Of a stretch of 64,000 nucleotides of DNA, positions 13,914 through 17,820 are shown piece by piece; position 1 is the stretch's first letter, and each line of letters starts with the position of its first letter. A program made the position numbers and the translations under genes. The stretch spans positions 62,001 to 126,000 of the forward strand of contig NZ_JBGGTQ010000004.1 of assembly GCF_041320705.1 (NCBI RefSeq). The letters are read 5' to 3'. The stretch is from Kineococcus mangrovi. GTDB lineage: Bacteria > Actinomycetota > Actinomycetes > Actinomycetales > Kineococcaceae. Under the pieces are notes generated by a model, which saw nothing but the letters and a program-made list of their open reading frames with translations, was not told where the DNA came from and made no database searches.

Positions 13914-14510
13914 TCACTGAGCGGCCTTGTACTGGTCGATGATGCTGGAGGAGATCGGGCCGCGCGGCGCGACGGCGATCCCGTTCGAGGCGGCCCACTC
14001 GCGCACGGCGCGGGCGTCCACGGCGGCCGAGGAGGACGCCGGGGCCGACTTCTTGGCGGCGGCCTTCTTCGTGGTGGCCGAGGTGGCCGCCGGGGCGGCG
14101 GCCGACTTCGCGGTCGTCGACTTGGCGGCGGACTTGCTCGTCGCCTTCTTCGCCGGGGTGGCGGCGGGGGCCGGGGTCTCGACCTCGGGGGCGGGGGTTT
14201 CCTCGACCGGGGCGGGGGCGGCCTTCTTGGCGGTCGCCTTCTTCGCGGCGGCCTTCTTGGCCGGGGCGGCCTTCTTCGCCGGTGCGGCGGCGGCCGGGGT
14301 GGAGGCGGGGGTGCCGGCCAGCGCGGCGGGGAGGTCCTCCCACGCCACGGTGGTGGCGGCCTTCGCGGTCGCCGGGTTCCACGAGACACCGTTCGCGTTC
14401 ACCGTGAAGGTGCCGATCTTGCGACCGTTCCGCTTGACGGGGATCTCGAGGTCGACGGCACCGACGGGCAGTTCGGTGGCCACCTTCAGTGCGACGTCGT
14501 GACTTGCCAT
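13914..14510 (-). CDS. Chimeric nucleoid protein: H1-like linker, Lsr2-type C-terminus
   Basis: A 198-residue protein with three parts. The N-terminal domain (about 1-65) contains LEIPVKRNGRKIGTFTVNAN and VSWNPATAKA, a small beta-rich module I cannot name. The middle (about 66-160) is an Ala/Lys/Pro low-complexity tail with repeated AKKA units, like histone H1 or the HupB tail. The C-terminus (about 163-198), REWAASNGIAVAPRGPI and then IIDQYKAAQ, matches the DNA-binding domain of Lsr2, including the RG pair that inserts into the minor groove. It is therefore likely a DNA-binding, chromatin-organising protein, but it lacks Lsr2's own dimerisation domain. ATG 14510 has GGGAG seven bases upstream. 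The long upstream region (about 660 bases) contains TTGACG at 14630-14635 on this strand, a possible -35 box. Confidence 0.8.
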   Translation of the reverse strand: MASHDVALKVATELPVGAVDLEIPVKRNGRKIGTFTVNANGVSWNPATAKAATTVAWEDLPAALAGTPASTPAAAAPAKKAAPAKKAAAKKATAKKAAPAPVEETPAPEVETPAPAATPAKKATSKSAAKSTTAKSAAAPAATSATTKKAAAKKSAPASSSAAVDARAVREWAASNGIAVAPRGPISSSIIDQYKAAQ

Positions 14511-15126
14511 GCTGGTCTCCCGGGGGAAGTGGCTGGAATCAGGCGTATGCAATGAAACCACAGTTCTGCGGGGGTTCGCGCATCGAACGAGTGATTACCG
14601 CCGTAGTTCCCGGTTCTCCCGACAAGCACCGTCAACGGTCCGGTGAACACCTTCGGCGGCAGTTGTGCCGACCGGTCCGAGAGGGAACTGCCGGGCCGCA
14701 ACAGCGCCGGTCGGCAACGGTCCTCCGGTGCTCGGCGGTCCCCGGGGGTTGTTCGGCGGCGGGGTTCCCCGTGCGGGTTCCACGGCCTCTCGCGGGGTGT
14801 TCTGCGCGGGGACCACCGAGGTGGGGAAGTGCCGGTCACCGGGTGCCGGAGAGCGTTGCGGGGACGGCGGCGGGGAATGCCGCGCCGATTCTCCGGCACC
14901 ACCGGGACGGGAACGGGATCCGGTGTCCCCGCTCGCGCCGATCGCATTTCCGGGTGGTCCGGTCATCGCGGGGCAGCCCGGTCGCCGGGTGGTCGGCGGG
15001 CGCGGGCCCGGAGGAGACCGTCGGGTCCGGCGAGGGCCCGGGGGGCGGGGTGCGTGGGCCGGGGTGGTGGGCCGGGGTGGGTGCGCCGGGGTGGGTGCGC
15101 CGGGGTGGGGACGACACGCCCGGGAA
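14511..15126. other. Long intergenic region upstream of the Lsr2-like gene
   Basis: About 615 bases without a supported gene. All plus-strand frames here lack ribosome binding sites and have mixed codon character, so they are not called. The left 100 bases are relatively A/T-richer and should hold the promoter and 5' leader of the nucleoid-protein gene. The right end holds a G-rich tandem repeat (15056-15110). Confidence 0.5.
15056..15110 (+). repeat. G-rich tandem repeat, about 14-bp unit
   Basis: Four near-identical units of the form GGGCCGGGGTGGGT or GCGCCGGGGTGGGT follow one another. The plus strand has many runs of three to four Gs in close spacing, so a G-quadruplex is possible. It lies about 60 bases from the 3' end of tRNA-Arg(ACG). 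Confidence 0.7.
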
Positions 15127-15165
15127 CGACGAGAGGCCCCCGGGGCGTCCCGGGGGCCTCTCGTC
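15127..15165 (-). terminator. Terminator of tRNA-Arg(ACG)
   Basis: GACGAGAGGCCCCCGGG pairs with CCCGGGGGCCTCTCGTC across a short gap. It starts eight bases beyond the tRNA 3' end on the minus strand. Confidence 0.8.
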
Positions 15166-17728: not shown

Positions 17729-17820
17729 GTACGCCCTGTGGGCTACACACGGGCCCGGCTCATCCCCCCCGAGCCGGACCGTCGACGGCCCCCGCTCCCC
17801 CCCAGCGGGGGCCGTCTCCC
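17729..17820 (+). ncRNA. 6C RNA (actinobacterial small RNA)
   Basis: Two consecutive hairpins each display a loop of seven cytosines. Hairpin one is CCGGCTC (17755-17761), loop ATCCCCCCC, GAGCCGG (17771-17777). Hairpin two has 13-bp arms at 17784-17796 and 17804-17816 around loop CCCCCCC (17797-17803). Two C6-or-longer loops are the definition of the 6C motif, an abundant small RNA in actinobacteria. The second hairpin also looks like the terminator. TTGCCA (17693-17698) and CAGGAT (17717-17722, spacer 18) could form the promoter, placing the start near 17729. From memory, the mycobacterial homologue (B11/6C) also lies next to the ssd gene, which is the next gene here. C-rich loops are thought to bind G-rich ribosome binding sites of target mRNAs. 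Confidence 0.85.

Follow-up and report, generated by a model that had tools for sequence, protein, structure and literature searches.

The stretch of DNA considered here, hereafter the window, comprises 64,000 nucleotides of the Kineococcus mangrovi genome (contig NZ_JBGGTQ010000004.1, positions 62,001 to 126,000 of the forward strand) and contains the gene of a chimeric Lsr2-type protein. The coding sequence occupies 13914..14510 (-), from an ATG at 14510 to a stop at 13914, and specifies 198 amino acids plus the stop, beginning with MASHDVALKV and ending with IIDQYKAAQ. It is embedded in a longer open frame of 226 amino acids from stop to stop that extends upstream of the ATG; in the family alignment, conservation starts at the ATG of the 198-residue frame, and the GGAG directly 5′ of it, read from the sequence as part of a ribosome-binding-site-like GGGAG at 14517..14521 (-), is invariant in all orthologues. 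A previous sequence-only reading of this DNA had given the gene this position and strand, and the prediction is borne out beyond chance, as the N-terminal module is conserved and the neighbourhood kept. The protein has a predicted three-part anatomy: an N-terminal module (residues 1-66; 14313..14510 (-)), an Ala/Lys/Pro-rich tail or linker (residues 67-161; 14028..14312 (-)) and an Lsr2 DNA-binding domain (DBD; residues 162-198; 13917..14027 (-)). In AlphaFold2 predictions based on seven family members, residues 21-64 and 162-198 reach a predicted local distance difference test score (pLDDT) of about 90, while residues from about 70 to 161 are disordered, with pLDDT below 50. A search against Pfam with hmmscan gives PF23359 (Lsr2_DNA-bd) as the sole significant family, and a search of NCBIfam returns low-complexity noise only.

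The identity of the C-terminal domain is supported by profile, PDB sequence matches and model superposition. PF23359 matches residues 163-197 (E 9.2e-12, 44.6 bits against a curated cut-off of 26.9), so that the Lsr2 domain proposed from the sequence alone is recovered by profile search. Lsr2 C-domains 6qkq, 6qkp and 2kng are matched by phmmer in the PDB (E about 0.002), and the same region matches phage Lsr2-like families in PHROGs. The modelled domain contains two helices (166-175 and 188-197), as does that of Lsr2, and superposes on 2kng with 0.7 Å over 31 residues. Where Lsr2 has its AT-hook-like RGR, the chimera has R183-G184-P185 (13956..13964 (-)). The RG pair that had been noted earlier is thus present, and R183 and G184 are invariant in the module-bearing family; the third residue, which had gone unmentioned, is Pro. 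Each of the 13 distinct module-bearing proteins has this RGP. The other Lsr2 domains surveyed (n=67) carry RGR in 64 cases, with KGR, RGK and RGP once each, and the classical Lsr2 of the same genomes retains RGR. The single RGP outside the family belongs to a Phd/YefM-antitoxin fusion of the window genome. Most simply, the change from RGR to RGP would be ancestral to the module-bearing family and maintained in it.

These data bear on the idea that the chimera is a second AT-selective xenogeneic silencer, in which the RG pair would suffice for AT selectivity and the N-terminal module would oligomerise. The invariance of R183 and G184 and a DBD fold that is intact and well above the Pfam cut-off fit such a silencer. 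Against it, the second Arg of RGR is replaced by Pro in the whole family, at a motif whose Arg97-Gly98-Arg99 in M. tuberculosis Lsr2 inserts into the minor groove (PMC6906086). Moreover, a passage of PMC8125055 states that Q/RGR mutations abolish DNA binding by Lsr2 and H-NS. A second silencer is thus improbable, and the silencer specificity attributed to the protein by the sequence-only reading is left unsupported because RGR is RGP family-wide and mutations of this motif abolish binding.

The N-terminal module has a predicted fold of four strands and one helix (beta4-alpha). It has no significant match in Pfam and none by sequence in the PDB; the Pfam matches below cut-off are POB3_N (E 0.08) and PH_TFIIH (E 0.03). 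The best fold matches found by Foldseek in the PDB are the SSRP1/Pob3 PH domains of FACT (E 0.4, TM 0.41), and the best match among the viral models of BFVD has an E of 0.09. The module is distinct from the Lsr2 oligomerisation domain, as had been suspected from the sequence: PF11774, the Lsr2 dimerisation domain, finds no match in the chimera while it matches the Lsr2 of the window genome at 4e-29, and homology with the Lsr2 N-domain was rejected on a profile-profile probability of 0.5% in hhalign. Sequence changes in the more divergent pairs of modules fall mostly at third codon positions, and comparison with the module of locus L033 gives a nonsynonymous rate (dN) of 0.06 and a synonymous rate (dS) of 0.40, a pattern indicative of purifying selection in those pairs.

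The two predicted folded ends are joined by a tail defined by its composition and predicted disorder. Its 95 residues comprise 17 Lys, 37 Ala, no Arg and 4 acidic residues, with a net charge of +13, which agrees with the earlier description of an Ala/Lys-rich tail like that of histone H1 or HupB. Low complexity rich in Lys and Ala is a HupB-like trait, and the HU protein of the window genome with a K/A-rich tail (L160) is comparable in this respect. The HU/IHF domain PF00216 itself has no match in the chimera, its genome-wide matches being two other genes.

All 11 Kineococcus genomes searched encode the N-terminal module, as does a single genome from another genus of the same family, with identities of 41-99%; 27 genomes of other families of the same order lack it. 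In a sample of 395 genomes of the class it was found only in the window genome, apart from one match that lies antisense within a gyrase-B/ParE-like gene and was rejected as due to chance. A scan of 84,980 species with two strict peptide patterns, which distant relatives may escape, gave the module in no records but those named Kineococcus (sp. TRM81007, siccus, rubinsiae, vitellinus, indalonis, and xinjiangensis, which has two copies). A close orthologue (at least 80% module identity) exists in 10 of the 11 Kineococcus genomes; the eleventh, a draft of 1,060 contigs, has only a 48% paralogue. Two genomes have three module genes each, and the paralogues carry longer, Ser/Thr-rich tails. The surrounding block is conserved in the order upp, an uncharacterised open reading frame (ORF), the chimera gene, tRNA-Arg(acg), tRNA-Ser(gct) and a penicillin-binding-protein-like ORF. 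Comparison of these loci indicates that the chimera is conserved vertically, in place. A phage origin was rejected, as the similarity to Lsr2-like proteins of Streptomyces phages is confined to the DBD; a plasmid origin and a defence system were likewise rejected, with no plasmid match and no PADLOC match. Downstream of the penicillin-binding-protein-like ORF, a 6C RNA (Rfam RF01066, above gathering score) lies at 17749-17820 (+).

A separate classical Lsr2, whose existence the sequence-only reading had proposed to survey, is found in the window genome, with RGR, and PF11774 is present in 11/11 Kineococcus genomes. The window genome also encodes a second Lsr2 N-domain protein (L032; G000:C10, about 89.2 kb), whose C-terminus is degenerate and has no PF23359 match. 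The presence of the chimera beside classical Lsr2 in each Kineococcus genome could suggest that the chimera is an antagonist or counter-silencer that shares Lsr2 sites, cannot build an Lsr2 filament because it lacks the Lsr2 dimerisation domain, and relieves silencing as Ler does with H-NS. That the DBD keeps the Lsr2 fold while the Lsr2 N-domain is absent points the same way, and there is a precedent in Ler, which has an altered hook (VGR motif) and alleviates H-NS silencing (PMC4466236). However, the long basic tail and the conserved module suggest more than a dominant-negative DBD, without the second Arg of the hook the chimera should compete less well for Lsr2 sites, and the paralogues have multiplied, with Ser/Thr-rich tails. 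An antagonist role is quite unlikely.

The distance from the start of the chimera gene to tRNA-Arg is 661 bases, in agreement with the length of about 660 bases that had been taken as a sign of complex control. Similarity detected by blastn upstream of the gene stops about 75 bases from the ATG, the family alignment carries conservation to about 110 bases, and the remainder of the gap varies in length and sequence. The conserved part includes a block, GCGCGAAC-CCC..GAACTGTGGTTTCATTG, at 14550..14581 (-), which is unique in the genome and probably represents a promoter, a leader or a regulator site. Within it, GAACTGTGGTTTCAT is invariant across the close Kineococcus orthologues, K. xinjiangensis excepted, and its extended form has no other copy in the genome. 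An SOS/LexA box in this block (GAAC-N4-GTTT) was considered and rejected, as it differs from TCGAACNNNNGTTYGA at three positions and falls outside the sites found with at most one mismatch. A scan of the upstream region for sigma-70-type promoters gave nothing, and its one weak terminator-like hairpin has a stem that is not conserved. A strong inverted repeat read from the sequence after the tRNA, at about 15131-15163, looks like the terminator of the upstream tRNA. The simple reading is a single proximal promoter or leader for the chimera gene; complex control finds no support because about 110 bases are conserved, the rest is variable and the tRNA apparently has its own terminator hairpin.

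The architecture was placed among other Lsr2-domain proteins through a survey of 118 genomes of the class, in which 70 loci were read, the choice being biased to long open frames; most partner modules are named from their sequence and only some loci were profile-checked. The majority of PF23359 proteins are classical Lsr2, and about 11 have other architectures, which include SbcC-like ATPases, an SMI1-like protein, a recombinase, an SMP-30-like protein, N-terminal DBDs and an 'LTIDxxDxLxDVL' class. For example, SbcC/SMC-like ATPases of several actinobacterial genomes end in an RGR-bearing Lsr2 DBD (L030 at G000:C4, about 408.8 kb; L093; L099), and in a recombinase-like ORF (L089) an Lsr2 DBD interrupts the zinc-ribbon region. 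A second chimeric Lsr2 class (L077, L082, L090, L092) combines a short N-module, LTIDxxDxLxDVLRVVGALYGV, with an Ala/Arg-rich linker and an RGR DBD; in the two members tested, this module has no Pfam match. The antitoxin fusion of the window genome (L031; G000:C6, about 287.6 kb) is of the Phd/YefM type, carries a truncated RGP DBD that it apparently took from the module-bearing family, and adjoins a PIN-like toxin ORF.

Fusion of the Lsr2 DBD to other modules is recurrent in actinobacteria and their phages, and a detachable DBD is already known. This recurrence raises a further alternative, in which the chimera would not be a chromatin protein: the N-terminal module would dock a specific partner, such as an enzyme, RNA polymerase or a membrane protein, with tail and DBD as a tether to DNA. 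Actinobacterial Lsr2 DBDs tether SbcC-like ATPases, an SMI1-like protein, an antitoxin and a recombinase, and Ku-Lsr2 fusions are known in phages (PMC8612146). Yet no catalytic motif is recognisable in the module, whose folded part is limited to about 45 residues, and the neighbours (upp, the uncharacterised ORF, the tRNAs and the penicillin-binding-protein-like ORF) suggest no partner, which makes a docking function very unlikely.

With a probability of roughly 0.6, sequence, models and analogy favour a Kineococcus lineage-specific nucleoid-associated protein that coats and compacts the nucleoid broadly, beside an AT-selective Lsr2. DNA binding, oligomerisation and an effect on transcription would be expected of the chimera on these same grounds. 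The protein would have originated when an Lsr2 DBD and a new N-terminal module were linked by a basic tail of the HupB/H1 type. The Lys-rich tail would provide strong, sequence-independent binding to the DNA backbone, and the RGP hook would still lie against the minor groove, less selective for AT-rich DNA without the second arginine. The module would take over from the Lsr2 dimerisation domain by self-associating or docking a partner, and the overall result would be broad coating and compaction alongside AT-selective Lsr2. In a more specific and rather doubtful version, the module would be a new oligomerisation fold substituted for the Lsr2 dimerisation domain, and Kineococcus would possess an AT-insensitive chromatin protein that is assembled from Lsr2 parts and resembles linker histones. 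Several observations weigh against broad coating. The kept R183 and G184 may retain some minor-groove selectivity, the tail, acidic in one segment (VEETPAPEVET), could serve chiefly as a spacer, and self-association of the module is a guess from architecture because Foldseek finds no confident structural relative in the PDB or BFVD. A tie to Kineococcus stress tolerance is possible, as speculation.

If broad coating holds, a general chromatin protein would have evolved from the separated DNA-reading domain of Lsr2, and the motif to which AT selectivity is ascribed would have changed naturally from RGR to RGP throughout the family. The matched RGR and RGP paralogues of one Kineococcus cell would then offer a direct test of the role of the hook in selectivity. 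A literature search limited to open-access papers found no description of the module, the tail or the RGP hook, and among the genomes searched the architecture is limited to Kineococcus and one sister-genus genome. The distinct class put forward by the sequence-only reading is fair as a genus-restricted family, but Lsr2-DBD fusions as such are recurrent. Sequences and models together argue for a real, lineage-restricted variant of an already known kind of nucleoid protein.

Comparison with known systems places the chimera between several of them. Like the Lsr2 of Mycobacterium and Streptomyces (PF11774 plus PF23359), it has two folded ends and a flexible linker; unlike it, it lacks PF11774, carries a 95-residue Lys/Ala tail and RGP for RGR, and is additional to classical Lsr2. 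By analogy, the closest functional precedent is MSMEG_1060 of M. smegmatis, a paralogue of Lsr2 without Q/RGR whose affinity for both AT- and GC-rich DNA exceeds that of Lsr2 and which is found over the entire nucleoid (PMC8125055). Both proteins lack Q/RGR, have a basic stretch and stand beside Lsr2, but the N-domain of MSMEG_1060 is also described as Lsr2-like and its basic tail has 20 residues (PMC8125055), whereas the N-domain of the chimera is new and its basic tail internal. With HupB and HupS the chimera shares a long K/A-rich disordered tail, here placed between two folded modules and without an HU domain. As in Ku-Lsr2 and other fusions, the DBD serves as a detachable DNA-binding module, and a basic linker occurs in the LTID class as well; those fusions have different N-terminal modules, and the ones read keep RGR except the Kineococcus antitoxin fusion. 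Finally, the N-terminal PH domains of FACT SSRP1/Pob3 and Rtt106 resemble the module in a beta-meander and helix, at a non-significant level; the module is only about half a PH domain, and the likeness to FACT is taken as a lead and not as homology.
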